Notes under the pieces: generated by a model | Database searches by the model: none | Told to the model about the DNA's origin: nothing | What the model saw: only the letters and a program-made list of their open reading frames with translations | Made by a program: the position numbers and the translations under genes | IMG/VR virus record: IMGVR_UViG_3300048584_000025 | Coordinates: 1-31,473 of that record | Reading direction: 5' to 3' (one strand) | DNA length: 31,473 nt | Origin: a virus | Part shown: positions 2,581-21,616 of the stretch, in pieces | How the letters are laid out: every line of letters starts with the position of its first letter | Position numbering within the stretch: the first letter of the stretch is position 1

Positions 2581-2584
<4 letters not shown>
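1970..2584 (-). CDS. Unknown protein after the tail fibre
   Basis: 204 residues, beginning [20 protein letters not shown]. The first 75 residues look like a small mixed alpha/beta domain ([20 protein letters not shown]). A lysine/alanine-rich linker follows (about 95-110, [18 protein letters not shown]), then a C-terminal domain of about 85 residues ending ...[14 protein letters not shown]. No signal peptide, membrane helix or known motif is seen. The ATG overlaps the tail-fibre stop as ATGA, so it is probably translated together with the fibre. A fibre-assembly partner or minor tail component is plausible from position only. I do not recognise the family. Confidence 0.7.
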
Positions 2585-4878
<2,294 letters not shown>

Positions 4879-4973: not shown

Positions 4974-7900
4974 TCAATCCGTGCCCTCGATGTTCTGGAG
5001 GATGCCGTAAGCATCCCTGAGAATGTGGCTGAATGACGATGCCGCTGCCGCACCATCTGAAAACGGTGCCAGGCCGGTGAGCAGGGTTTCCGCATCCTTG
5101 AGCGCATCGGCAAAATCCTTTTCGCCGTCAAAGTAGTCTGGAACGTCTTTGACCAGCTTCAACGCATTACCTGGAGCGTCCAGCAATGATCCATCTGGAT
5201 GATACACGCCGAATGCACTGAAGATCCCCGCTTCGATTTCTTTGCCGAGAATAGGGATACCGGAAAGCGGACCCGTGGCCGCTTGTAAAGCGAACCGCTT
5301 GGGGTTCCAGTTTCGCTCGTCAAACCACTCGTCATCGTCGTCCGAGCGAATATCCCGCATCACTCCACGGATGATCGTGGAAAGAATGCCAGTGAGCAGC
5401 CAACCAATAGCCAATCCCTTGGCCTTTTGCATTCCGGTCTTGTTGATCATGTCATAGGCACCAATCGCGGCTTTTTGCCGTCCTTCCGATGCAAACGCCC
5501 ACAGGATGCGAACCGCCGGATTGGTGGAAGTGACCTCAAACAATGATCGTTCGCCGGCGCGGATCGGTTGCGCCACTTTGTCGGTGATGCGTTCCGCTTC
5601 GGCAAGTGCTGCCGCCTTGTCGCCGCCGTTTTCGGAGAGTTGCCAATCGTAGATCATGGCAAAGGTTCCCGCCGTAAAATAAGCATCCGCCCCAGAAATG
5701 AGTTTCCCGAGCTTCTGCGCTGCCGCTTTCTGGGTGGATGGCCGGGAGCTTCGCAGTCCTTCCGCCGCTTCCCGCACAATCGGCGGCATTTGTTTGAGCC
5801 GCCGCTGGATGTAATCTGAATCCATGGTGGCGATCCAATCAAGTTGCCCGGTAGCGAGCTTGGCAAACTGCTTGAGGTAAATGTGGGTCGGCATTTCATA
5901 CAACCCGGCACCCAGTTGGGTGGACTGGATGGCCAGCACGCTCACCCGTCCGACCAGTGCCGCGGTGGTGAGGCGTCCGACCATCCGAGAAATCAAGCGG
6001 TTGCCTGCCAGGTGGGCCGCTTCATCGCGTACTCCGCCTTGCATGAAGTAGTTCCCCCAGCCCCGCAGCACATTAAGTGCTTCCATTCCGGCCTTGCCTT
6101 GCACGGCGTTGCCCACGTCGCGGTTGTTGAAGATGGCGCCCATGTCCTGGGCGAGTTCCGCATAATGAATGAAATGTTCCATTTGCTTGGTGTGGCCGAT
6201 GAACACTTGCAGCGCGTCCTTGAAATCCGGTTCCGCGATCTTGGTCTGCGTGCGGTTTTTCAACGATCCCGCCGTGATCCCCGGGCCGGTCATGGCACCG
6301 GAAATCGGATTGGCCGCTTGCGCTCCCGATCCCTGGAACGGAATGACCGTGAGTTGGGAGTAAAATTTATGCTTCGGCATGTTCATTTCAAACATGCGCC
6401 GGAAAACGGCGTTCACCCGGTCGTATTCCATTTCATAGGCTTCCCGCAGGTGGAACATGACGGCGTGAGCTTCCGGCGTGAGTTGCGCACGCAGTGCTTT
6501 CATGTCCTGTTCGCGCCAGTGCCAATCGTCGATTGGATCTCCATTTTCATTGAGTTTGCCGCCCATGTGGCGTTTGCCGTCCTCCTGATTCCACATGAGC
6601 AGGGCGGTGATGGCTTCCATGGTGGTGAACCGTTGTTCCCGGCCTTTGAAGTCTGTCACCTTGAGCGTGCGCTGAGTGGCCATATCGTAGCGGAGTTGAT
6701 CCCCTTTGACGCCGCCTTTGCCGAGGCGTTGGAAAAGGTCGTCGATCTTGTCCCAAATGGAGGATTCCGCATCCGTGCGCCGTTGCGCGGCGATGCGCTC
6801 GCGCTCGTAGAGCATGGCAACCACCCGTGAGTTTTCCCCGAAGACGGTTTGTAAAATCTGCCGGTAGGAAAACAGCGAGAAGATCGTATCTTTCAGCCTG
6901 CCGATTTTGGTTTCCGCTGTTTTTTCCGCCTTGCGGATTCGGTCCATGCGCTCGCCGGCGGTTCCGGCATTTACCACCAAGTCTTGCCGCCATCCTTGGC
7001 GCATGGCCTTGCGAATGCCTGCACGGTTGCGCACTTCGCCCCGGCCTGTATCGTAGAGACGTTGCGCCACCTTGACTCCTTCGATCTTGCGATGCGCGTC
7101 AGCGGCTTCCCAGTTGCCGAATTGGTTGACCAGTTGCGCCAGGTAGCGAAATTCTGCCGCTTGTTCTTCGTTGGAATTGTTGGAATCCGCATCTTCTTCC
7201 AGACGATCCGCCTTGCCTTCCAGTTCGTAAATCTTGTCCTCGGTTTCGAGGAAGTTCATGGACATGGCGGTTTCGATGAGATTGAAAAGATCGTGGATCT
7301 CAGGGCCGAGAACTCCCATCGGGCGCTGCCCTTCCTCGTCCTTCTCAGGCCGCACCTTTTCCAGCAGCCTTTCCATTTCCGCCCGGGCTTCGGCGCGGAG
7401 GTAGCGTTCAAGCAGATTGTCGGCTTTCTCCAGCTTCTGTTCGAGGAATGCCAGCCTGGCCTCATGGGTGGCGAGACGGGCCATTTGTGCTTGCCCGCCC
7501 ATTTGCCCGCGCAGCTCGACCGGCAGGGCCAGGGTGATGGCATCCAGCATCCGAATGCCACGGGTGACGGCGTTCTTGGCGCTTTCCTCGCGCTGTTTGC
7601 CGTGTTGCGACATTTGTTCCATGGCCCAGGCATTAGCCTCCTCCTTGGCCCGTAGCTTCGCATCGCGGATTTCCTGTTGGGCGTCCGAAAGCATTTGCTT
7701 CATGGTCGCCACACTGTCTTGCTCGCTCTTGAGTGCTTCCCACATCGCATCTGCAGTGGGGGCTTTGATGAGATGCTCGTCAAAGAGTTCTTTCGCGGCC
7801 TGGTCCGGCATGAGGTTCCCGCCATACACCGAGCGGGAAACCCCGTCAGCGCCGGCGTAATGGTCGCCGGTGCTTTTATCGGGGAATTTCTTGAGAAACG

Positions 7901-10900
7901 CCGATTTGCTCATCAAACGCCCGCGCAGGGGTGAATCAGGATCGGCAAGGTAAGCGTGGACCAGACGGCTCTTGATCTTCACCAGATCCTCGACCGAGAG
8001 GATTTCCATGCGGCGAGTCATCACATCCTCCTCGTATTGTTCCGCTAGCATCTCTTCCATGGCAGCGGCTTTCTTCCGCAATTCCCCCTTGGTGTCACCG
8101 ATCCACAAATCCAGCCCCGCCCGTTCAGCTTCCAGCTTAATTGCTTGGAAATCCTTGTAGATGCGGGACATGACCGCGTTGCGCCGTTGCGGGTCGGTGA
8201 TCCGATCCATGATGTTCCCCATCATCACATCCGCCACCTTGGCCGGGCCGATGGAATAGGAAACGCCCGTCAATTTACCCGGCAAGTCGGATTCTGCCGA
8301 TTCCACAATAGTTTCAGCTCCTCCTCGCTGAAATTCTTGTATCGCGGATGCCGTGATGATTCCGTAATCCGTCACAATCGAAAACGACGCCGGGCCGATG
8401 ACGCTTGGCGATCCTTCCGCCCCTTGGAAACTCCGTGTCTCTGCCGTGGGCGTGACTTTGGAGCGACCAATCGAAAACGGAATATCATCCGCCGCGACTT
8501 CTTTGGGTTTTCCAACAATACGGGCAAGTTCTTCCGCGACGGCAGCCTCATGTTCCGTTTGCTGGTCAAGGCCGAGCAGCTTGTCAAGGTAGGCATCGCG
8601 AATGGATGGGTCCCATTCGCCCCGACGTTCCGCGCCACGCATGGCCACGGCGCGGGAGGTTGCCAAGCCCCAGTGAGCGCGGACGGCGCGGAAATAGGCC
8701 ACCCAGTCGCCAATGACGCCAGGCATGAGCTTGGTAAGCGCGGTGATGTTGCGGGACACCACGCCACGGGCCACGCCGAGACGCCCCTTGCCTTTGCCCT
8801 TCTTCGGGCGGAAAACTTCGGCCTCGGTGATTTCCGAAACGCCTTCGTCCATGATCTTCTCGACGTAGAGCTTGCCGTTGCCGTTGAACTCCGCAGGGAT
8901 CATCGCTGCCGGGATGTTGCCGGTGAGAAGCATTTCATCGGTGAGTCCTTCGGGAATCATCCGCATGGCTGGCCCGCGTTTCCCGCCGTCCATGGATTTG
9001 ACAAACCTTCCCGCAAGAACCGTGTCGTATGAACGCAGCAACTCAAGATCATGCTTCAGGGTGAGCACCCCGGCCTTGTGGGCACCCCGACGCAGGCCGT
9101 GGCCGGTTTCGTGGAAAGCATCGGTGACGGAGGAGGATTGAAACAGTCGGTTGATCGTCGTCCGCAGACCTTCGGCAAAGTTGGTGACGGAATAACCCAG
9201 CACGGATCGGGCAACGTCGCCGGTGCCGCCTTCCGCCTGTTCTTTTAAGACCACCTGTTGGGCGTAGGATGCCGCCATTTCCGCGGTGGCTTGCGACGGG
9301 TCAAATGGCCGCAACGACACATCCATGGTGGATTGTGGGTCAAGCTTCACCGCCGCGTCCGTGGCTTCCATGAGCGAGGCGAGAGCTTCCCGCTTGGCCG
9401 TTGCCTTTTCCTTTTCCAATTCATCGGTGAGGGATGCGATATAATCCGCCGTGATGTCCTCCAGTGCCGCCGTGTGAGTGCGGGAAATGCGGATGGCCCC
9501 GGCAAGATCGGGAGCACTGCCCAGGTCGTTGCCGTCTGCATCAAAAACAATGATACCTTCCGCCGTGCGGACAAAATTCGGGTCTTCGTATCCCAGTTCT
9601 TCCTGTGCTTGACGTTGGCGGCGTAGCTTTTCGTCAAGGATTTCCACGGCGGCCTGTGCTTCTGGACTGTTCGGATCTCGGGTTTCCAATGCCGATTCCA
9701 CGGCACTGGCAAGCGATGATGGTCCGTTGGCCGCACTGATGGCGGCAATGCCATCGGTGGTGATTCCGATGGCTTGCAACTCGGTAGGAGTGGCACGGGC
9801 GAAAGCAGCGTTGCGGGCCTCCTGATTGACCCCGCCAATCGCCGCTCTTCCAGCGAGTGGCAGCATGGAAAGAAACGTCGTGGCTTGGCGTGTCCAGAAG
9901 CCATCAAGAGCACCGTCCTTGCCGTTGCTCCACTCGGCAGCGGAAATGCCGGTGTCCATTTCCAGCGCGTGCGACAATTCCTGCACGGCGTAGGGTGTCA
10001 GGAATTGGATTTCCTCGACGGTGGTTTCTGCCGTGGTGGCAGCACCGGCTTTGATCAATCCGCGCACGAGGCGGTTTTGAATGCCGTCCCCGATTTTCAT
10101 CAATACCTTGTTCGCAATCGGCAGCTTACCAAGGGCGAGGTGGTTCTGAAGGATTTCAATGCCAAGTTGCGGGACGGCTGCAAGGGTTTTGTTGTCGTTG
10201 GCAAACCTGGAGGCGTCCATTTCAGAGGCACCCGAGCGAATGGCATTGTCGCGGAGATCGGAATAGGCGAAATCCTCCATGGCCAAGGCAAGAGTCGGGT
10301 AGCCAATCACCGGCGTTGCCATGACTGCCACCGAGGCGATGGCCGAAGCACTGCCGTAAAATCCCTGTTCGAGCGTGCGGGTGGAAAAAACGTCGGTGCT
10401 TGGATCAGAGTAAAATTGAGTCGGTGCGTATTCGTCGCGCTCCATCTTGCGCACGGCATCCATAAAGTTCTTTTGCTTCAGGCGCTCATCGGCCAGCGTG
10501 GCGGCATTGCTTGCCGCTTTGGCCTTGTCCGCATCCGATGCGCCAAATGGCCCAGCACTGTCGGCAATGCCTTGGTTGAGTTCTTGTTCCAGAGCTTTGA
10601 CCGTGAACCGGCTCGCCGCCCCACGAAACATGTCATCGACCACCGATCCAAAGTTTTTCCCCCACGTCGCCAGCAATGCCGGCCTTTGTTCTTTAGGAAA
10701 TTGCTGGATGAGCACCGCCAGCCCATCCATGAATCCGGCGCGGTCTTCTTCCGGCAGCTTGTCGTAAAATTCGTAGGCAAGTGCCCCGGCGTCCTTCTTT
10801 TGGAGTTCGTCAATGGTGTCTTGGCCATCCGCGCCGCCACCGAGCAGCAAGTCAGCGCCGATGGATTTCAGCGCTTCTGAGGGAGATCCGGCACCACCGG

Positions 10901-11585
10901 CTTTCATCGCCTTCCAGACTTGTGACAATTCCGCCTTGTAGGGTTCAACCTGTTCTTTCACTTGCCGCCGCGTTTCATGCCATGCTGCCAAGTAATCCGC
11001 ATCGGTTTCCTTGTTGTAGCCGGGATGTTTTTTGGCGGCTTCTTTCCACGCCTGGAACGTGCCGCCAGTCTCCCCGAGGTTGCCAACGGTGGCCGATACC
11101 CTCGCCGTGGTTTGCAACTCGTCAAAAAGCGTCTTGGTGTCCTTGCGCTTGGTGGCGGCTTTGGTGATTTCCCCGAAAATCGCGTCATCGTTCTCCGCAC
11201 CGGCCCCGCCGAAGACTTGTTCAGCCAGGCGGGCACGGGTGAATTCCCGGCTCAATCCCATCGGTGGGTCTTCCCCATCGGTGTGGAGGCGCATCCAGTC
11301 ATCGACTACGCGGGTCTTGCGCCACTCTTCGGGCGTGTATCCGTAGGGCACCCGCTCGTCACCGTAGCTTTTCGGGTCAATCACTGCGGCATCCAGTGCG
11401 GTGGCGCTCTCTTGCCGCCAGGTGTCCATCGCCTTTTCGTGATCGTCCCGGTAATCCGGCTGACCAAACACGCCGAGCAGCGGGTTTGCCGTGCTTTGCG
11501 GTATCCCCACGGTGAGAGCCGTTGGCGTTTCCAGTTTGATCTCGGGCAGATTTTTTAAAATATCTTCGATGGTGAAATTGCTCAT
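4974..11585 (-). CDS. Giant polyvalent-type ejection protein with HETGH protease motif
   Basis: 2203 residues, the largest gene here. It occupies the place of the T7 gp16-type internal protein that enters the host with the DNA. The N-terminal about 400 residues are hydrophilic and helical. A hydrophobic stretch lies near 410-435 (SAIASVAVMATPVIGYPTLAL). A zinc-metallopeptidase motif HETGH occupies 825-829 (AFHETGHGLRRGAHKAG), and acidic residues about 85 on (DEGVSEITEAEVF) could give the third ligand. The motif (F/Y)SI occurs at 1037, 1068 and 1110, similar to spacers between domains of large polyvalent proteins. A long charged coiled-coil region spans about 1190-1560. The C-terminal third has membrane-prone helices (about 2050-2070, GLAIGWLLTGILSTIIRGVM). 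The overall plan matches the 'large polyvalent protein' class; the role in ejection is inferred. No lysozyme domain is visible here. Confidence 0.85.
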   Translation of the reverse strand: MSNFTIEDILKNLPEIKLETPTALTVGIPQSTANPLLGVFGQPDYRDDHEKAMDTWRQESATALDAAVIDPKSYGDERVPYGYTPEEWRKTRVVDDWMRLHTDGEDPPMGLSREFTRARLAEQVFGGAGAENDDAIFGEITKAATKRKDTKTLFDELQTTARVSATVGNLGETGGTFQAWKEAAKKHPGYNKETDADYLAAWHETRRQVKEQVEPYKAELSQVWKAMKAGGAGSPSEALKSIGADLLLGGGADGQDTIDELQKKDAGALAYEFYDKLPEEDRAGFMDGLAVLIQQFPKEQRPALLATWGKNFGSVVDDMFRGAASRFTVKALEQELNQGIADSAGPFGASDADKAKAASNAATLADERLKQKNFMDAVRKMERDEYAPTQFYSDPSTDVFSTRTLEQGFYGSASAIASVAVMATPVIGYPTLALAMEDFAYSDLRDNAIRSGASEMDASRFANDNKTLAAVPQLGIEILQNHLALGKLPIANKVLMKIGDGIQNRLVRGLIKAGAATTAETTVEEIQFLTPYAVQELSHALEMDTGISAAEWSNGKDGALDGFWTRQATTFLSMLPLAGRAAIGGVNQEARNAAFARATPTELQAIGITTDGIAAISAANGPSSLASAVESALETRDPNSPEAQAAVEILDEKLRRQRQAQEELGYEDPNFVRTAEGIIVFDADGNDLGSAPDLAGAIRISRTHTAALEDITADYIASLTDELEKEKATAKREALASLMEATDAAVKLDPQSTMDVSLRPFDPSQATAEMAASYAQQVVLKEQAEGGTGDVARSVLGYSVTNFAEGLRTTINRLFQSSSVTDAFHETGHGLRRGAHKAGVLTLKHDLELLRSYDTVLAGRFVKSMDGGKRGPAMRMIPEGLTDEMLLTGNIPAAMIPAEFNGNGKLYVEKIMDEGVSEITEAEVFRPKKGKGKGRLGVARGVVSRNITALTKLMPGVIGDWVAYFRAVRAHWGLATSRAVAMRGAERRGEWDPSIRDAYLDKLLGLDQQTEHEAAVAEELARIVGKPKEVAADDIPFSIGRSKVTPTAETRSFQGAEGSPSVIGPASFSIVTDYGIITASAIQEFQRGGAETIVESAESDLPGKLTGVSYSIGPAKVADVMMGNIMDRITDPQRRNAVMSRIYKDFQAIKLEAERAGLDLWIGDTKGELRKKAAAMEEMLAEQYEEDVMTRRMEILSVEDLVKIKSRLVHAYLADPDSPLRGRLMSKSAFLKKFPDKSTGDHYAGADGVSRSVYGGNLMPDQAAKELFDEHLIKAPTADAMWEALKSEQDSVATMKQMLSDAQQEIRDAKLRAKEEANAWAMEQMSQHGKQREESAKNAVTRGIRMLDAITLALPVELRGQMGGQAQMARLATHEARLAFLEQKLEKADNLLERYLRAEARAEMERLLEKVRPEKDEEGQRPMGVLGPEIHDLFNLIETAMSMNFLETEDKIYELEGKADRLEEDADSNNSNEEQAAEFRYLAQLVNQFGNWEAADAHRKIEGVKVAQRLYDTGRGEVRNRAGIRKAMRQGWRQDLVVNAGTAGERMDRIRKAEKTAETKIGRLKDTIFSLFSYRQILQTVFGENSRVVAMLYERERIAAQRRTDAESSIWDKIDDLFQRLGKGGVKGDQLRYDMATQRTLKVTDFKGREQRFTTMEAITALLMWNQEDGKRHMGGKLNENGDPIDDWHWREQDMKALRAQLTPEAHAVMFHLREAYEMEYDRVNAVFRRMFEMNMPKHKFYSQLTVIPFQGSGAQAANPISGAMTGPGITAGSLKNRTQTKIAEPDFKDALQVFIGHTKQMEHFIHYAELAQDMGAIFNNRDVGNAVQGKAGMEALNVLRGWGNYFMQGGVRDEAAHLAGNRLISRMVGRLTTAALVGRVSVLAIQSTQLGAGLYEMPTHIYLKQFAKLATGQLDWIATMDSDYIQRRLKQMPPIVREAAEGLRSSRPSTQKAAAQKLGKLISGADAYFTAGTFAMIYDWQLSENGGDKAAALAEAERITDKVAQPIRAGERSLFEVTSTNPAVRILWAFASEGRQKAAIGAYDMINKTGMQKAKGLAIGWLLTGILSTIIRGVMRDIRSDDDDEWFDERNWNPKRFALQAATGPLSGIPILGKEIEAGIFSAFGVYHPDGSLLDAPGNALKLVKDVPDYFDGEKDFADALKDAETLLTGLAPFSDGAAAASSFSHILRDAYGILQNIEGTD

Positions 11586-11859: not shown

Positions 11860-13857
11860 TCATTTCAAAGGCATCTCATCGGCTCCGGGCGTCACAGCTA
11901 TTGCGTTAAAGCTGACGTGGACGTGTTCATCGTGTGGATTACTGCCTGAATAATCCGCCCACCCGGTGGAAGGTTTCCAGATTTTCCCGGCGTGGATAAT
12001 ATATTTCACGTTGTTGGCCGTGGCATTGGCCACAATCTCCCCTGTCACCTTGGCCCCGTCGTTGCCCTTGATGGCGATGTCGATTGCGTCCCCGGTATTG
12101 TGATCGCTTTTCCTTGCCTTGTGCTTTTCATCACCCCAAATTCCCCAGTTTTCAACACTGGGATACTTGGCACTGACAACCCCCCAAAGTTTTGAAACGT
12201 ATGGATTTACTCCCGCGCCATTCATGCCAGTTTCCCGCCCAGGTGGAGCTTTCACCGGCCCAGTCGTCGGTGCCACACGCGCCGACTTGCTGCCGAGTTC
12301 GCGGAGCTTGCCGCCGATGGCCTCGTCATTTGCATCCGGGTGGAGCTTGATCCACTTCTCAAAGTCGATCAGGGCTTCGCCATAGGCGCGGGTGGCTTGT
12401 TCGTGAGCGGCTACAACTTCCGGCGCAAGATCCGCTTTCCATTGGACCTCGGCGTTTTCAAGACGCAGCGCGTCTGAAACCGCGATGTCAAACGGCGTGG
12501 CATTCACGCTTTGTTGCGGGCGGTTTTTCCAGAGTTCCGTGAATTTCTTTTGTCCCATGGCCGGGTCTTTCGCCGCCTCGCGGATGTCCTCGGCCTGAGA
12601 TTGGGAAAAACCGAGGGATTGCAGTTTCGGAATATCTTTCAGGAAACCTTTCTTCACGGCGGCCCGCGTCTCGATGTTCGGCGCGACCGGCGTTTTCAAC
12701 GGGCCAAAGTCGCCGCGATCCGCTGCTTGTTTCAGCGACTCGCGCCCCTGGTCTGCCTTGGTTTTCACCTCCTCGACCAGCCGTGATTTCCTCGCCGCCA
12801 TGCTGTCGCGCATCTTGTCCCGCAGCGGATGCCCTTCAGGCAGTGACTCAATGGCAAAGCGGAGATCCACCCCTTGCGGATCCGGTCCTTCTTCATCGGG
12901 TTGCCAGTCGCTAAGAGTGGCGTAAAATTGGCCAACCGTCGCGGCGATGTTTTTTGGGTCGGCCCGCTGTTCCTTGGCCCCTTTTGCATTCCAGTTGTCA
13001 AACGCATCGAGCAGCTTCTTTTGGGCCAGTGGCCGCAGGTCTGAAGTTAGTTCCTTGATTCGATCCGCACTGGTCACATTGCCGGTGATGATCCCGTCAA
13101 TGATGGTGTCGGAAATTTCAGAGTCGTCCTCGGCAATCCGGCCCTTGGCATAATCGGCGTATTTTTCCCACTGCACCAAATCCACCCCGGCGGGTGGTTT
13201 ACTTTTCCCGTTCTGTTCCAGCCATGTCCGAGGATCGTCTTGGATGGATTGCAGGTAGCCTTGATGCTCGAACTTCCGCTTTGCCTGATACTTCAGCTTG
13301 GCCGCTTCTTCTGGAGTCGCCCCGGAAGCCGCTGCAAAGCGGTCAATCGTGGCGTTGGCGCTTTCTAGATCGGGTGCTTGTTCAAGCTCCAAGTCAAACT
13401 GTTGCCCGGATCGCTTCATGGCCAACCGTGCATCGTCTGCCGTCCCCTGAATGGTTTGCCTGGTGGCAAACTCATCAAAGTGCTGGACAAGTGAATCTCT
13501 CACGGCAGGCGCGTATTCCGGCGAGTCCATGCGGCTTTTGTAGGAGGCCAGAAACTCGTTGCGTTTCTTGGCCCTCACTCCGGGGTCCATTTCATTTTGT
13601 AACTCCGCATCAAGCGCGGCATAGTCCCTCGCCAAGTTCATTCGCGCCTCGCTTTCCATGCGTCCGTTTTCGAGTTTCTGCGTTTGCAGGGCGATGTTGT
13701 GGAACATTTCCCCGGCGTTGGAAATGGATTGCGCGACGTTTCCAAGTGCCATCGCAGGCGCAGCAGCGGCCCGTGGGTCCACCATCACGGGAGAATATCC
13801 CGGCGCATTGATGTTGACGGGATTCAGTTGAGGAATGTCAGGGAGTCGGATAGGCAT
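11860..13857 (-). CDS. Virion protein with C-terminal M15-like peptidase domain
   Basis: 665 residues from ATG 13857 (MPIRLPDIPQLNPV), one base after the previous stop. A longer frame reaching 14106 lies inside the previous gene and is not the likely start. Residues 1-520 are mostly charged helices with Ala/Gln-rich segments, as in phage internal or ejection proteins. The last about 100 residues carry KSDHNTGDAIDIAIKG (H586), followed by NPHDEHVHVSF with H642, H645 and H647. This is the zinc-binding pattern of M15/VldE-like peptidoglycan peptidases found in phage lysins. It probably makes the local hole in the cell wall during DNA entry, the job done in T7 by the lytic transglycosylase part of gp16. 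It stands between a small internal protein and the giant ejection protein. The family call for the C-terminus is good; the N-terminus is unassigned. Confidence 0.82.
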   Translation of the reverse strand: MPIRLPDIPQLNPVNINAPGYSPVMVDPRAAAAPAMALGNVAQSISNAGEMFHNIALQTQKLENGRMESEARMNLARDYAALDAELQNEMDPGVRAKKRNEFLASYKSRMDSPEYAPAVRDSLVQHFDEFATRQTIQGTADDARLAMKRSGQQFDLELEQAPDLESANATIDRFAAASGATPEEAAKLKYQAKRKFEHQGYLQSIQDDPRTWLEQNGKSKPPAGVDLVQWEKYADYAKGRIAEDDSEISDTIIDGIITGNVTSADRIKELTSDLRPLAQKKLLDAFDNWNAKGAKEQRADPKNIAATVGQFYATLSDWQPDEEGPDPQGVDLRFAIESLPEGHPLRDKMRDSMAARKSRLVEEVKTKADQGRESLKQAADRGDFGPLKTPVAPNIETRAAVKKGFLKDIPKLQSLGFSQSQAEDIREAAKDPAMGQKKFTELWKNRPQQSVNATPFDIAVSDALRLENAEVQWKADLAPEVVAAHEQATRAYGEALIDFEKWIKLHPDANDEAIGGKLRELGSKSARVAPTTGPVKAPPGRETGMNGAGVNPYVSKLWGVVSAKYPSVENWGIWGDEKHKARKSDHNTGDAIDIAIKGNDGAKVTGEIVANATANNVKYIIHAGKIWKPSTGWADYSGSNPHDEHVHVSFNAIAVTPGADEMPLK

Positions 13858-13858
13858 A

Positions 13859-14407
13859 TCAGTAGAGTCCTTGGTATTTGCCGGTGCGATATTGACCGAA
13901 GGCACTGGTGGCGCCACCGATGGCAGTTCCCAGCATGGCGATCCTTGACGCGGATTTTGCTTGGGCAGCTTCCCATAGGCCCATTTTGCCTTGCACGTCG
14001 GCTTCCCATAGGCCCATCCGCCCCCTTGCGCGGAGACTCGCGGCCTGCATGGCCGAGGCGCGAACGGCGTCTTGAATCCCGATCTCCAAGCGACCGGCTG
14101 ATTCACCGGCCACCAGCAACGATGCTCCGGTGGTGCTTTGCAGACCTGACGAGGATGCGCGGTTGCGAAGATCAGCCAAAGCGGAGCGGTTGGAAATGCG
14201 TTGGCGCTTCACTCCTTCACTGGTTTGGTTTTCCGAGTTGGTGGCCTCGTTTTCCGCCAGCTTGAGGTTGTATTCCGCCGACAATCTTCCAGCATTGGCA
14301 TTGTATTTGGCCGCTTGCATCTGCGCCTTGGCACTTTGGTTCTGGCCATACATTTGCAGGCCGGTGTTTGCCAGCGTTCCAATCAAGCCTATTGCTCCCA
14401 GTCCCAT
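13859..14407 (-). CDS. Small internal virion protein (T7 gp14-like position)
   Basis: 182 residues. The N-terminus MGLGAIGLIGTLANTGLQMY is hydrophobic and glycine-rich. A long Ala/Gln/Ser/Asn-rich helical region follows (about 22-150), and then another hydrophobic piece (about 157-170, IAMLGTAIGGATSAFG). This composition is usual for short internal or ejection proteins of podoviruses. An 11-residue tandem repeat (xMGLWEA) lies at about residues 131-151. Stop and next start are separated by one base. The assignment rests on composition and on its place before the two large ejection proteins. Confidence 0.7.
   Translation of the reverse strand: MGLGAIGLIGTLANTGLQMYGQNQSAKAQMQAAKYNANAGRLSAEYNLKLAENEATNSENQTSEGVKRQRISNRSALADLRNRASSSGLQSTTGASLLVAGESAGRLEIGIQDAVRASAMQAASLRARGRMGLWEADVQGKMGLWEAAQAKSASRIAMLGTAIGGATSAFGQYRTGKYQGLY
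13968..14017 (-). repeat. Two-copy 33-bp in-frame repeat
   Basis: A 17-base word (GCTTCCCATAGGCCCAT on the plus strand) occurs at 13968-13984 and again at 14001-14017. The copies are exactly 33 bases apart, so the internal virion protein contains MGLWEA twice, 11 residues apart. It is an in-frame local duplication with almost no divergence, so it is probably recent. Confidence 0.9.
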
Positions 14408-14411
14408 GGTA

Positions 14412-14873
14412 TTAGATCGGTTTGAAAAGTTGGGTCATGCCGGTATCCCCGACGTGGAAATCCAGCCGCTTGAGCATTTTTAGCAGAGCCGGGTGGTGGT
14501 AGGTGGCACAGATCAACCAGTAGTCCATGCTCTTGGCCAAGCCGGTGAGGTAACTCACCAGATGCCGCAGCGCCCGCCCGGTGCGGTGCACGGAGGTCTT
14601 TGGGCAAGTCGCCAGCCATGCCAGCCACGCCACGCCTGAGCCGGTGGCATCGAGGTAAAGGAAAGCGCAGGCAATGGGTTCACCGTTGTGTTCGCACACG
14701 GCACCGCAGCCCGGCAGCATCTCCCGCGTGGGAGAATCCCCGCCCCGCGCCTGCCACCACGGAGAAACCATTTCAAACTCAGCAGGGCAGACGCGCCCAT
14801 CACATGAACGGATGACGGGACGGACGGAGAAGGACATGACGGAATTGTGCGACATGGTATAAAGTAACGGCAT
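14412..14873 (-). CDS. GNAT-like acetyltransferase in the virion module
   Basis: About 153 residues from ATG 14873 (MPLLYTMSHNSV); ATG 14855 is also possible, and upstream codons would run into the tail gene. The segment CEHNGEPIACAFLYLDA is the usual strand pair of a GNAT fold. It is followed by GVAWLAWLATCPKTSVHRTGRAL, in the place of the acetyl-CoA loop, and LKMLKRLDFHVGDTGMTQLFK, the typical C-terminal end of the fold. T7-like phages often carry such a protein between tail and internal virion genes (internal virion protein A / DUF2833 type). The gene lies 14 bases after tail tubular B and 4 bases before the small internal protein. Whether it is enzymatically active or structural cannot be told. 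Confidence 0.7.
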   Translation of the reverse strand: MPLLYTMSHNSVMSFSVRPVIRSCDGRVCPAEFEMVSPWWQARGGDSPTREMLPGCGAVCEHNGEPIACAFLYLDATGSGVAWLAWLATCPKTSVHRTGRALRHLVSYLTGLAKSMDYWLICATYHHPALLKMLKRLDFHVGDTGMTQLFKPI

Positions 14874-14887
14874 TGAAGACGGAAAAA

Positions 14888-17845
14888 TTAAGATTCGTGG
14901 ACTTCCCACCGCAGCACGGCACTGCGAAGGCAGAAGGGGAAGGGTTCGTCGTGGAAAATCCGCAGTTGCAGGTCATCTAAAGCCCCAGAATCCGGCACGG
15001 TTTCCGCCCAGCCGGTGCGAAGAACTTCCGATGAAATCGCCGGAATCGTTTGCTTGTTGGTGCCCGAGCGATTCCACACTTGCCCGCCACGCGATTGGTA
15101 GAGCGAGAGCAACACCTTCCGCAGCCGCTTGCGCCGGGCTTGCGTGGTGCCCTCCTGTCCGCTCATATCGACCGGCAGAGAATTCAGAGCACTTTCGATG
15201 ATCTTGCCGATTTGCCATTCCGCACTTGAGATCGTTTCGGTGGTGTCGCCGGTGTAGTCTTGAATCGACACGTCCGGACCGATAGGCCGAGCGATCAGCC
15301 GGGTGATTCCCGTCGTCCGTAGATGTGCGGGAATCGTGATGGTGCTGCCGCTGCCGGCCACTCCATCCAGATGAAACCACCCGTTGTCATCCTCGACCGC
15401 TGCCTGCCAATTTTGCTGAAACCTTTCCAAGTGCATCGACCCGCCACGAGCGACCACGAAAAACACTTCGTCGTCACCTCGATCTGATGGCAACACCGCG
15501 ACGTCGTAGAATTCCCCGCCCGTGGTGGTGTGGCGACTCCATGCCGCTACATTCTCCCTCCGAATCCACGCGAAATGAAGCAACATTCCATCGCGGCGCA
15601 CGGCCCATATGCCGGGTTCGCGGGTGGTTTGCCAAGCCATGTTGGAAATCCCTCCACGGGTGAGGTGCTCGCCCATCCGTGTGAGATCCGCAGCATCGTA
15701 GCTTCCCCGCGTGTCATCAAATGCCATTTCGCGCAGACGGGTAGCTTTACGATCCAGAAACAAGATGGCGTCCCCAGCCAGGTGAGGCATGATCGGTGCG
15801 CTTCCGTAGGTGGAGTATTGGCGGGCGAGGAAATTGGTGGGCGACAAGGGCGCATCGGAAGACTCGCTACCCGATACCCATTCCCCAAACGCCGTGCCGA
15901 TAAATAGCCGCCGTTGTGAAGCCATCCAGCGAATCGGAGAAGACGCGGACAGCGCCAGTGTCGCAAAAATACCGGCATCCGCTTCGGAAGATGTTTCAAA
16001 ATTCAAAAGATCATCGGCGGCACTGATCCATATCGACACGGGCTTTGATCGCGTGCCAGCAAAGCACAGGCGGCTTTCGTGAAACGCCATCGCACGAGGG
16101 TAGCCATAAGTGGAATTAAAGGCACCTTCCGCCCAATTAAAAGTGTTGCCGCTCATCAACGACGTGACAGCCACGCCGGTCATGAACCCCGGACTCACGT
16201 AAGCCGTCATCAACGCGTAACCCGTGACGTTCGGGCTTTCCGGCACCAACACCCCACGTGGGGGAGTCAGGCTTGCTGGATCGGCATCGGCAACAAACTT
16301 CCACCGAATCCGCATCCAGACGGGTTCATCCTCGGTGCCACTATCGGCCACGTTGCGGTCCTCACTGGATTCCCAAGAGCGGGTGGTTTCCCAAGAAATC
16401 CCTTGATTGGCGCTACGTTCCAGGGTGAATGTTCCGTCCCAAGTCCCATACGTGAAAAAGTTCCAGCCGCCTTGCACGATGATCACCGGGCTACTCACGC
16501 CATTGTTTCCAGAAGTGGCCGCAAGTTCGACTTGAAAATCCTGGTCGTCCCGCTCGGGGCTGATCCGATAGTAATTCCCCGGTGAAAAAGCGTTGGTCAA
16601 AAACGTGGTTGAGAAGCTATCGCCAACGACTGTCCACACCGCGCCGACACCAGGCCTATTTCCTGTCGTCGGCGTATGGGTGGTATTGCAAATGTAGATT
16701 TTCCCTTCGTAAGAAATGCGAGTGCCGCTCGTGTAAGAACCTGATCCCAAAAACGCATCGACAGAACCGGGCATTGCTCCCCATGCGACCCAAGAACAAT
16801 AATTGTCCAACGGGCCGCCAGATCCATGAACCGCAATGTAAATTGTATTAAGGTAATATGCCAATGTTCCAATGACTGTATATCCCGGTGTTAAAGGCAC
16901 AGGTGATGCTAAAACACGACACCATAAATCACCTGTGGCGACTGGAATCGAATAGCTAGTTAAGTCTCCATAGTCATAATCTGGATAGGTGTCATGCGCC
17001 GCGACACAAACTGATACATTAGAACTTCCTGCCACAAATGGCGGTGCAGATCCAGCCCAGTAAAGCCTAACATCCCCAATTTCATATCTGACATTTTTTA
17101 ACCCCCAAGCCACTTCGCTCCGATCATCCGAAAGCAGTGTAATCGGGTCCCCGGCAGCGTAGAACATCCGCCGCCAGTAGGTTTTCCAATCCGCGCCGGT
17201 GCCGGGTTTCTTGGCCGCGTCAGAGTTGTGGGCGAGGATGCACTCCCATTCGCAATTTGTGAATACCTTCGCTCCCACCGCATACGCAGCCCCAGAGGCC
17301 CATGTCGCGGCCACCGGGTTGCTTGCCACGGTGAAGGTTTTTGTCTGGTCAAGATTTTGGTCAAGGGTCGGAGCACGATCAAAAGGAATGAACTCCAAAG
17401 TCCAATCGGTATCCGAGTTGCGGGAAAGTCGCAGGGGAAAGGTGCCGGGGTGCGTGATGAACGCCACATCGTTGATTTGAACCATGTGCATGTCGCGAAT
17501 GGAGTTTTCCCAATCGAACGTCCCCGGCCAGGTGTAACCGTCCATGAAATCCAAAGTGTCTTTGACCACGCCAGCGGTGCTGTAAACCGTCAACGTGTCA
17601 GGTGTGAAGTGGAGCAGGTAGCGGGTGCCGTCGCTGGCAATAAACGGCAGCAGGCGGGAGTTGCGCGTGGCCGTGCCGATGTTGGCCAGCCATTGCAGCC
17701 CGGGCCGCTTGATGACTCCACCGTAAGGCATAGCGATGAAGTTTTCCATCAACTCGGCGGCACTGTCGGCCTTGTCGATGTCAATCCGGTGGCGAAGGTA
17801 GGGCGTCACCTCGCCGGCGTTGAATGAAAGCTTGCTTTGATGCAT
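14888..17845 (-). CDS. Tail tubular protein B (nozzle, T7 gp12-like)
   Basis: 985 residues, beginning MHQSKLSFNAGEVTPYLRHR. The N-terminal pattern S-F-x-x-G-E-x-x-P-x-x-x-x-R, then AAELMENFIAMPYGGVIKRPG, is characteristic of nozzle/tail tubular B proteins of podoviruses. The rest is beta-rich with many aromatic residues and SRLCFAGTRSKPVSIWISAA, a stretch commonly conserved in the family. It forms the distal tail tube to which fibres attach. It starts 3 bases after the stop of tail tubular A. Its length (T7 gp12 is about 800 residues) suggests an inserted beta domain, perhaps around residues 195-420. Confidence 0.85.
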   Translation of the reverse strand: MHQSKLSFNAGEVTPYLRHRIDIDKADSAAELMENFIAMPYGGVIKRPGLQWLANIGTATRNSRLLPFIASDGTRYLLHFTPDTLTVYSTAGVVKDTLDFMDGYTWPGTFDWENSIRDMHMVQINDVAFITHPGTFPLRLSRNSDTDWTLEFIPFDRAPTLDQNLDQTKTFTVASNPVAATWASGAAYAVGAKVFTNCEWECILAHNSDAAKKPGTGADWKTYWRRMFYAAGDPITLLSDDRSEVAWGLKNVRYEIGDVRLYWAGSAPPFVAGSSNVSVCVAAHDTYPDYDYGDLTSYSIPVATGDLWCRVLASPVPLTPGYTVIGTLAYYLNTIYIAVHGSGGPLDNYCSWVAWGAMPGSVDAFLGSGSYTSGTRISYEGKIYICNTTHTPTTGNRPGVGAVWTVVGDSFSTTFLTNAFSPGNYYRISPERDDQDFQVELAATSGNNGVSSPVIIVQGGWNFFTYGTWDGTFTLERSANQGISWETTRSWESSEDRNVADSGTEDEPVWMRIRWKFVADADPASLTPPRGVLVPESPNVTGYALMTAYVSPGFMTGVAVTSLMSGNTFNWAEGAFNSTYGYPRAMAFHESRLCFAGTRSKPVSIWISAADDLLNFETSSEADAGIFATLALSASSPIRWMASQRRLFIGTAFGEWVSGSESSDAPLSPTNFLARQYSTYGSAPIMPHLAGDAILFLDRKATRLREMAFDDTRGSYDAADLTRMGEHLTRGGISNMAWQTTREPGIWAVRRDGMLLHFAWIRRENVAAWSRHTTTGGEFYDVAVLPSDRGDDEVFFVVARGGSMHLERFQQNWQAAVEDDNGWFHLDGVAGSGSTITIPAHLRTTGITRLIARPIGPDVSIQDYTGDTTETISSAEWQIGKIIESALNSLPVDMSGQEGTTQARRKRLRKVLLSLYQSRGGQVWNRSGTNKQTIPAISSEVLRTGWAETVPDSGALDDLQLRIFHDEPFPFCLRSAVLRWEVHES

Positions 17846-20369: not shown

Positions 20370-21311
20370 TCAGGAGGCGGATTGTTCTCGCAGGCGGCTC
20401 ATGTGCTCATACACGGCGAGGCGGTCCTGTTCATTGTTAGAATTCAGCTTGGCGCTCCAGATCGGATCTTTGCCCTGCTTGATGTCGTCAATCCGCTGTT
20501 GCGCGGAGCGGAGATCCCCAAACCCGGTTGGCGTGCGAATGCCGTCCTCCTGGGTGAGCTTTGAGACATGCAGCATCATTTTTGCAAACTCCGGCGTGTT
20601 CGCCAGTTGTTGCAATGCCGGTGAATCAGGAGCGATGCCCGTTGCTTCCGCCAGCTTGCCGGTGAGGTGGCGCACGGTGGATGCGTTTTGCTGGAAATCT
20701 CCGCGCCACTCAGCCACCAAGTTGTCCTGTGCAGCCTTGAGCGTTTTCTGATGCTCCACCATGGCGTCCTGGGTGCGCTTGGAAAGGATTTCGTTGAAGG
20801 TCTTGGCCATTGCCGCCACGGTGGCCGGTGGGGCGTGGGTGGCGTGCGCGGCAGCAGCCACGGCACTGGCAAGCTCGCTGTCAAACTCCATGCCTTCTGG
20901 CAGTTGCAAAGCTTCGGCAGTCAGTCCATAGCCTTCGGGCGCATCCGGCACCCCGGCGATCTTACGGAAACGCTCGATGCTCGATGTGGAAGCACCCTCG
21001 CCGGGATACTCCACCCCGTTTTTGCGGAAGTAATCCAGCTCGGTGATGATGCTTCGCAGATCCTTGTGCTTGCCCAGGTCTTTAGCGTGCGCGGCGAACT
21101 CATCGCCCAAGGCCAGATACCAATCGTCAGACAGTTTCCCATCCGGGCCGATCTTCGGCACAGCGGGTGGATCGGTGGAAACCGGCGTAGCCGGTGGCGG
21201 GGTTTCTACCGGCGGGGCTGTCGAGACAGGCGCGGCGGGTGTTGGCGTTACAGGCGGGGTTTCCAGTTGTGCGGGCGTAGGTGCCGGCGCTGGTGGTGCT
21301 TCGGTGCTCAT
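20370..21311 (-). CDS. Scaffolding protein
   Basis: 313 residues from ATG 21311 (MSTEAPPAPAPTP), whose A overlaps the upstream stop as ATGA. Residues 1-52 are almost only Pro, Ala, Thr, Val and Ser, a flexible arm. The rest is acidic and helical, with YLALGDEFAAHAKDLGKHKDL, a pattern seen in T7 gp9-like capsid assembly proteins, and DAPEGYGL, a common phage scaffold signature. The C-terminus is helical and charged (DRLAVYEHMSRLREQ), where scaffolds usually touch the coat protein. Position between portal and capsid agrees. A terminator follows. Confidence 0.82.
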   Translation of the reverse strand: MSTEAPPAPAPTPAQLETPPVTPTPAAPVSTAPPVETPPPATPVSTDPPAVPKIGPDGKLSDDWYLALGDEFAAHAKDLGKHKDLRSIITELDYFRKNGVEYPGEGASTSSIERFRKIAGVPDAPEGYGLTAEALQLPEGMEFDSELASAVAAAAHATHAPPATVAAMAKTFNEILSKRTQDAMVEHQKTLKAAQDNLVAEWRGDFQQNASTVRHLTGKLAEATGIAPDSPALQQLANTPEFAKMMLHVSKLTQEDGIRTPTGFGDLRSAQQRIDDIKQGKDPIWSAKLNSNNEQDRLAVYEHMSRLREQSAS

Positions 21312-21616
21312 GGTGTTGGTTTGGTAAGAATGGATAAGCGTTGCCGAGCTGGCGCGGTGTCCGCGTCGTCCTTGTGCCAAGTGAGCATGAAGGAAATGCG
21401 CTCTTGGCTTCCGGCATATCGGCGCAGAAACTCCGCATCGTCATCGTGCGCGGCACTCCAGATAAAGCACTCAGCCGCTTTTCCGCCGAGTGGCCCGCCC
21501 GCCGGTGGTCGGGGGCTTGTGGGTGGGATTGGACTTGCCGTAATCGGCACGGGCTTGCTCAAGATTGGCTTCGATTTCGAGGATGATGGATTTTCGTCCA
21601 TCTCGCCAGATGGCAT
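21308..21616 (-). CDS. Unknown protein overlapping its upstream neighbour out of frame
   Basis: 102 residues if it starts at ATG 21616 (MPSGEMDENPSSSK), which has GGAAG eight bases upstream. ATG 21772 in the same frame is possible but would overlap almost the whole upstream gene. The first half, Pro/Ser/Lys-rich, overlaps the 102-codon Bbp19-like gene in another frame. The second half (AECFIWSAAHDDDAEFLRRY ... FMLTWHKDDADT) fills the otherwise empty 160 bases before the scaffold, and its stop overlaps the scaffold ATG as ATGA. That overlap is the best evidence that the frame is used. A +1 frameshift from the upstream gene is an alternative; no convincing slippery site was seen. Confidence 0.5.
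   Translation of the reverse strand: MPSGEMDENPSSSKSKPILSKPVPITASPIPPTSPRPPAGGPLGGKAAECFIWSAAHDDDAEFLRRYAGSQERISFMLTWHKDDADTAPARQRLSILTKPTP

Follow-up and report, generated by a model that had tools for sequence, protein, structure and literature searches.

The window analysed here, all 31,473 bases of the metagenomic contig IMGVR_UViG_3300048584_000025 (an IMG/VR virus record), carries on its minus strand an open reading frame that begins with ATG and encodes 2203 amino acids (aa; 4974–11585). Its product, which we call the giant, appears from its reading frame and family alignment to be a polyvalent protein of the ejection type, and four parts can be distinguished in it: an N-part (aa 1–660; 9606–11585, minus strand) with 15–49% identity in the family, a zincin-like domain delimited by alignment and predicted structure (aa 690–1022; 8520–9518, minus), a cassette tract that is nearly empty in this copy (aa 1037–1112; 8250–8477, minus), and a C-part of about 1090 aa that is the best conserved part in the family (aa 1113–2203; 4977–8249, minus). 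Kyte-Doolittle peaks lie at aa 409–427 in the N-part and at aa 1868–1886 and 2058–2076 in the C-part, the last being followed near the C-terminus by the signature RDIRSDDDDEWFD (5316–5357, minus). A first-pass annotation, made from the letters alone, had pointed to this reading frame, to a HETGH at aa 825–829 in a helix-like context, to three (F/Y)SI spacers at aa 1037–1112 and to membrane-prone segments at both ends of the protein. The first three proved correct, the spacers being a real feature of the whole family; of the membrane-prone segments, the one near the C-terminus stands and the other peak is located in the N-terminal third (409–427) rather than at an end.

Relatives of the giant were sought by scans of contigs. 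With the single protein as query 11 viral loci were found, and with the C-part alignment 36, on contigs partly shared between the two. A first scan of genome contigs with the single protein gave no relative; a further one yielded 11 loci, of which nine lay in Verrucomicrobia bins or genomes, one in Acidobacteriia and one in Oligoflexales, binned contigs being weak evidence of host. Against annotated phages the giant had no match by tblastn, nor did the C-parts of L041 and L025, and that of L042 had one weak match. The full-length set, whose members range in length from 2051 to 3325 aa, comprises 36 proteins, 35 of them distinct, after L008, L009, L011, L019, L027, L028, L044, L050, L052 and L054–L056 were left out as too short; L022, the same protein as L021, was dropped before the counts of module sharing, the tree, the His/Glu counts and the breakpoint counts. 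All 36 have the same frame of N-part, zincin-like domain, cassette tract and C-part. No model in Pfam, NCBIfam or PHROG named the whole giant, its matches there being absent or so weak that we took them for chance, including one to the N-terminal part of a viral RNA-directed RNA polymerase model (E 0.013, below the cut-off). For the C-part there was no convincing Pfam or PHROG match (4 of 23 members matched the unnamed phrog_9880) and no match of its profile to PDB sequences, and its predicted model is mostly helical at very low confidence (predicted local distance difference test, pLDDT, 38.8).

Against this frame the tract between the end of the zincin-like domain and the C-part varies widely, its shortest form having 25 aa (L043) and its longest 1248 aa (L017). 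In a Pfam scan of 25 relatives, from which the tracts of L036, L039, L043 and L046–L053 were left out, nine carried cargo above the curated cut-offs, namely ART-PolyVal (E 1.8e-19), RadC (1.7e-10 and 6.4e-12), MuF_C (2.6e-25), GNAT (2e-8) and LPD37 (1.4e-29), with further ART matches at 1.3e-22 and 9.6e-13, and 16 of the 25 had some match at E <= 0.01. At least two unrelated effector-type domains occur in one polypeptide in relatives such as L005 (GNAT together with an ART just below cut-off) and L035 (RadC, with ART and PRTase matching below threshold). The tract of L047 also contains a second HExxH (HELLH, aa 1124), which suggests that a peptidase-like module may travel as cargo as well.

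The modules in the tract are bordered by a short peptide, (F/Y)S(I/L). In the window protein it occurs as FSI at aa 1037 (8469–8477, minus), FSI at aa 1068 (8376–8384, minus) and YSI at aa 1110–1112 (8250–8258, minus), three occurrences of (F/Y)SI in the whole protein against 0.32 expected from composition. In the tracts of 30 proteins, 93 matches to (F/Y)S(I/L/M/V) were seen against 14.7 in shuffled sequences, whereas outside the tracts of the same proteins there were 32 against 39.0; removal of six near-duplicates, leaving 24 proteins, gave 83 against 12.9 in the tracts and 25 against 30.5 elsewhere. The surrounding positions are also biased, with D/G enriched at -4 and -3, S/A/P at -1 and G/R at +3; the form found at module borders can be written (D/G)x(S/A/P)(F/Y)S(I/L)(G/R). 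Two of the matches, at position 1026 of L016 and position 1042 of L041, fall within ART sequence and mark no border. Is the motif a general mark of polyvalent proteins? This was tried, and four large proteins of other phages had 2, 3, 1 and 1 matches against 1.6, 1.6, 2.2 and 2.5 expected, no clear excess, and the same was true of one small ART protein of another phage (1 against 0.3); from the four large proteins the motif seems to be particular to the family of the giant.

Comparison of close relatives shows modules gained, lost and replaced from motif to motif, as far as aligned sequences can tell, while the frame stays. L014 and L035, whose frames are 42% identical, have one motif-to-motif RadC module in common that is 76% identical over 419 aa. 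The C-parts of L024 and L045 are identical, but L045 contains 294 further codons in one in-frame block, both edges of which lie at the motif or at its variant YAI, and in the pairs L021/L023, L023/L033 and L015/L037 blocks are likewise replaced or inserted motif to motif. After merging, 22 of 52 homology breakpoints between close relatives fell within 9 nucleotides of a strict motif, compared with 3.9% of tract positions; the other 30 are off the motif, some of them at the border of zincin-like domain and tract or inside modules.

The window's own tract can be read as a relic of such modules. Its first part (aa 1037–1070; 8376–8477, minus) matches the 31-aa leader that precedes the ART domain in L015, L016, L017, L018 and L035, the ART domain behind it being gone, and its second part (aa 1075–1112; 8250–8363, minus) matches the closing stretch of the module that bears LPD37 in L030 (35 aa at 71% identity). 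The nearest kin of the window protein in the tree are L017 and L035, with tracts of 1248 and 1207 aa, respectively. The simplest account of the sequences is that the window tract of about 75 aa arose by in-frame loss of the ART and of most of the LPD37 module. The zincin-like domain is all that is recognizable in the window protein, in which no cargo domain was recognized. The first-pass annotation had suggested a large polyvalent protein that delivers a protease and other domains into the host. As a description of the family this is apt (ART-PolyVal, RadC, MuF_C, GNAT and LPD37), whereas the window copy is an emptied one and the delivery of other domains by it finds no support.

A HExxH is expected by composition 0.036 times in a protein like the giant. 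The HETGH (aa 825–829; 9099–9113, minus) lies on one predicted helix (820–837, model residues 161–178, block pLDDT 81–88) of an AlphaFold model of the zincin-like domain (24 sequences, mean pLDDT 71.1, predicted template modelling score 0.53), and E914 (8844–8846, minus), the candidate third metal ligand, lies on a later predicted helix (904–924, block pLDDT 93–95). Sequence and predicted helices place HExxH on one helix and the candidate third ligand on a helix further on; as judged from the sequence, the four residues H825, E826, H829 and E914 would suit a zincin site and look catalytically complete. The zinc-protease fold that the first-pass annotation had expected around them is matched weakly. 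In structural comparison with VIA the top rank was held by lethal factor chains, over their N-terminal region (Z 4.0–4.8), and entries of the lethal factor catalytic domain scored Z 2.7–2.9, with model residues 160–312 over residues 680–775, which we take to hold its HExxH. The profile of the domain had a single match among PDB sequences (E 0.32), taken for chance. Lethal factor is also a zincin that Iyer et al. name for polyvalent MPTases (Iyer et al., 2017; PMC5512222).

The site varies among the 35 distinct proteins, which comprise 16 HExxH, 11 EExxH, three HExxE, four EExxE and one RDxxQ. Altered sites occur in L020, L021–L026, L029, L031–L034, L036, L038, L040, L041, L045, L049, L051 and L053. 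E826 is present in 34 of the 35 (the exception has Asp) and E914 in every one, while each of the two His sites requires at least five changes on the tree. The residues that replace His there are nearly always Glu (15 of 16 and 7 of 8), compared with a Glu share of 2.9% (4/139) or 5.9% (22/370) among non-His residues at other His-rich columns. Such a bias is not what random decay would predict, but it is what a retained metal or acid site would. We treat metal binding and proteolysis by the domain as predictions.

The giant closes a block of structural genes on the minus strand. The block begins with a nozzle or tail protein of 985 aa (14888–17845; phrog_376, E 6.6e-117) and continues with a 165-aa protein, p165 (14412–14909; phrog_17252, with a weak GNAT match), a 182-aa internal virion protein (13859–14407; phrog_418, E 1.4e-11) and a protein of about 665 aa in the gp15 position (11860–13857). 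The last probably starts at the ATG at 13857, which adjoins the upstream stop, rather than at the listed GTG at 14106 (748 aa); it matches phrog_32486 (1.6e-10) and has a C-terminal HxxGxAxD...HxH-type stretch resembling M15 peptidases, Pfam M15_4 matching at just E 0.1. Relatives of the nozzle, p165 and/or the ~665-aa protein were detected by tblastn upstream of the giant in 26 of 34 loci, and none of the three in the remaining eight. The giant follows a phrog_418 protein and the ~665-aa protein, as expected of the gp16 position; against the first-pass reading "rather than only a T7-like gp16" it may be said that it still occupies that position and that polyvalent and gp16-like are not alternatives. 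That the giant is phage-encoded is clear from the rest of the window, where profile scans identified terminases, portal, major head protein, adaptor and nozzle. Other features of the window include a CBM5/12 carbohydrate-binding match in the nozzle protein (E 1.7e-7), a fibre-like protein (2581–4878, minus) that has a GPT repeat of the collagen type and ends in a laminin-G-like domain, and a tRNA-Ser (gga) at the left end (37–126, plus), the structural genes being on the other strand. A protein encoded between portal and capsid (20370–21380, minus) has a match to phrog_3742 and a weak one (2e-6) to phrog_458, whose annotation is "protease"; from these matches it is a candidate scaffold or separate virion protease.

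How does the giant compare with known systems? Among the closest are the polyvalent proteins encoded by phages and conjugative elements (Iyer et al., 2017; PMC5512222): there too a single phage protein combines effector-type domains of several unrelated kinds, and the zincin-like MPTase, ART and LPD domains are all named among them there. The family of the giant differs from them in its fixed frame with a single cassette tract, in modules bounded by a short motif and exchanged motif to motif among near-identical phages, and in its altered ligand residues; the words "FSI", "linker" and "modular" are absent from the main text of that paper. T7 gp16 is similar in its position after gp14-like and gp15-like genes, its large size and its membrane-prone segments, but profile scans of the giant found no peptidoglycan-hydrolase domain, an M15-like motif being present in the gp15-position protein instead, and a hydrolase moved to the gp15 homologue has been reported for other ejection proteins. 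The virion RNA polymerase (vRNAP) gp50 of N4 (Schitoviridae) likewise closes the same gene block (gp53, 16.5 kDa, 66 kDa, vRNAP) and has an HExxH domain upstream of a C-terminal part of about 1100 aa, and profiles of N4 vRNAPs place an HExxH and a downstream Glu in register with those of the giant, weakly (hhalign P 0.012). Unlike N4 gp50, the window protein had no phage-type RNA polymerase model among its matches at E <= 1. Kinship of the C-part with N4 C2 was unsupported by profile comparison (P 0.053). Lastly, vir555_54 (BK063671, phrog_9880) is an annotated giant that follows an internal virion protein (the order being tail protein, phrog_831, phrog_418, a hypothetical protein and the giant) and has an ART and a HEIGH, but the ART precedes the HExxH and there is no clear motif excess (2 against 1.6). 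The giants of the more distant phages L061 and L058 also have HExxH and ART in another order and no motif excess.

The explanation that best fits these observations overall, and that we regard as quite probable, is that the giant is an ejection protein in the gp16 position that acts as a carrier frame for swappable cargo bounded by the motif, and that the window copy of it has been emptied. The giant would be the largest ejection protein of a short-tailed phage with Verrucomicrobia-like hosts and, going by the position of its gene, would probably leave the virion by way of the nozzle, before the DNA, during infection. In the relatives the tract would bring effector-type domains with it (ADP-ribosyltransferases, RadC, a MuF_C nuclease, an acetyltransferase and LPD domains), and the motif is most likely a flexible or protease-sensitive peptide joint that would let each module fold or come free. 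In the window copy, in-frame losses would have fused the leader left from an ART module with the tail left from an LPD37 module, and the part that could still be delivered would be the zincin-like domain with its candidate site intact. Packaging of the giant, its ejection and the release of its cargo in the cytoplasm would all be parts of this scheme.

Several of our results weigh against this explanation. The ejection role is read from gene order; no cargo domain was found at E <= 0.01 in 9 of the 25 scanned relatives (the tracts of L013, L020, L034, L037, L038, L040, L041 and L045, and the protein L004) or in the window copy; and HExxH is altered in 19 of the 35 distinct proteins. A Foldseek search of the PDB with the zincin model had no match at E <= 0.001, its best row being at E 0.62, and with a top Z of 4.8 the VIA comparison stays in a range described by the tool as common, a weak fold match. 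A small number of close pairs supplied the breakpoints, and these are not independent of one another, so that the printed tail probability of 1e-17 overstates the case, and, since the contigs are metagenomic, single junctions, including the window's at 1070/1071, could be assembly errors. The matchless tracts, several of them about 1000 aa long, may hold undescribed domains.

Should the giant instead be seen simply as a structural ejection protein like gp16, with a vestigial or structural HExxH domain and a tract that is no more than a tolerated insertion site? The variable ligand residues, the weak fold match and the missing cargo of the window copy would all agree with this, but the inserted pieces are known effector-type domains, the two His sites stay His or Glu far beyond the share of Glu elsewhere, and E826 and E914 hardly vary at all; we consider it rather unlikely. 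A more ambitious version of the carrier idea, which seems possible though doubtful, is an injected arsenal, in which the (F/Y)S(I/L) sites would be peptide-coded ports for adding, swapping or removing modules between nearly identical phages, a protease would separate the modules in the host, and the HExxH would be shifting between His and Glu around two invariant Glu rather than decaying, so that the family would offer a natural set of metal-site variants of an injected enzyme.

The remaining alternatives concern the motif itself. If the giant were a self-processing polyprotein, its built-in zincin would cut at (F/Y)SI and free the modules before packaging or in the host, as has been proposed in general for MPTases of the zincin-like kind in polyvalent proteins (Iyer et al., 2017; PMC5512222), and both the position of HExxH...E just upstream of the tract and the placing of the motif at module borders are consistent with this. 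However, tracts contain similar numbers of motifs whether the HExxH is intact (mean 3.06) or altered (2.79), which counts against the zincin as a needed cutter and gives no support to the idea that the motif requires the zincin, and clades with EExxH still swap modules at the motif; self-processing is accordingly unlikely in our judgement. It is also conceivable that the codons of (F/Y)SI serve as a DNA recombination site or as microhomology and not as a peptide signal, given that homology breaks coincide with them to within a few nucleotides and that one 9-mer, TTCTCCATC, is the commonest with 12 occurrences. Codon use did not support such a site: in a count that left out four rows, the serine codons at the motif were close to background (TCC 36 against 30.0, TCG 25 against 19.9, AGC 15 against 19.7), and F/Y and I/L/V interchange, the DNA thus changing under a constant peptide pattern. 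A motif that is kept as protein without clear codon bias probably acts as a peptide, and we hold a DNA site to be the least probable of the alternatives.

We conclude that the giant is probably of the polyvalent ejection protein type and a distinct, well-marked family version of it that was not previously known. In the literature searched we found no description of how modules of polyvalent proteins are delimited and exchanged. In the family of the giant, near-identical phages differ by whole modules whose borders can be read to the nucleotide, which makes the unit of exchange, the peptide at its border and the cargo directly testable. For many of the modules Pfam has no matching model, and splitting the protein at the motif provides a simple rule for finding unknown injected effectors.

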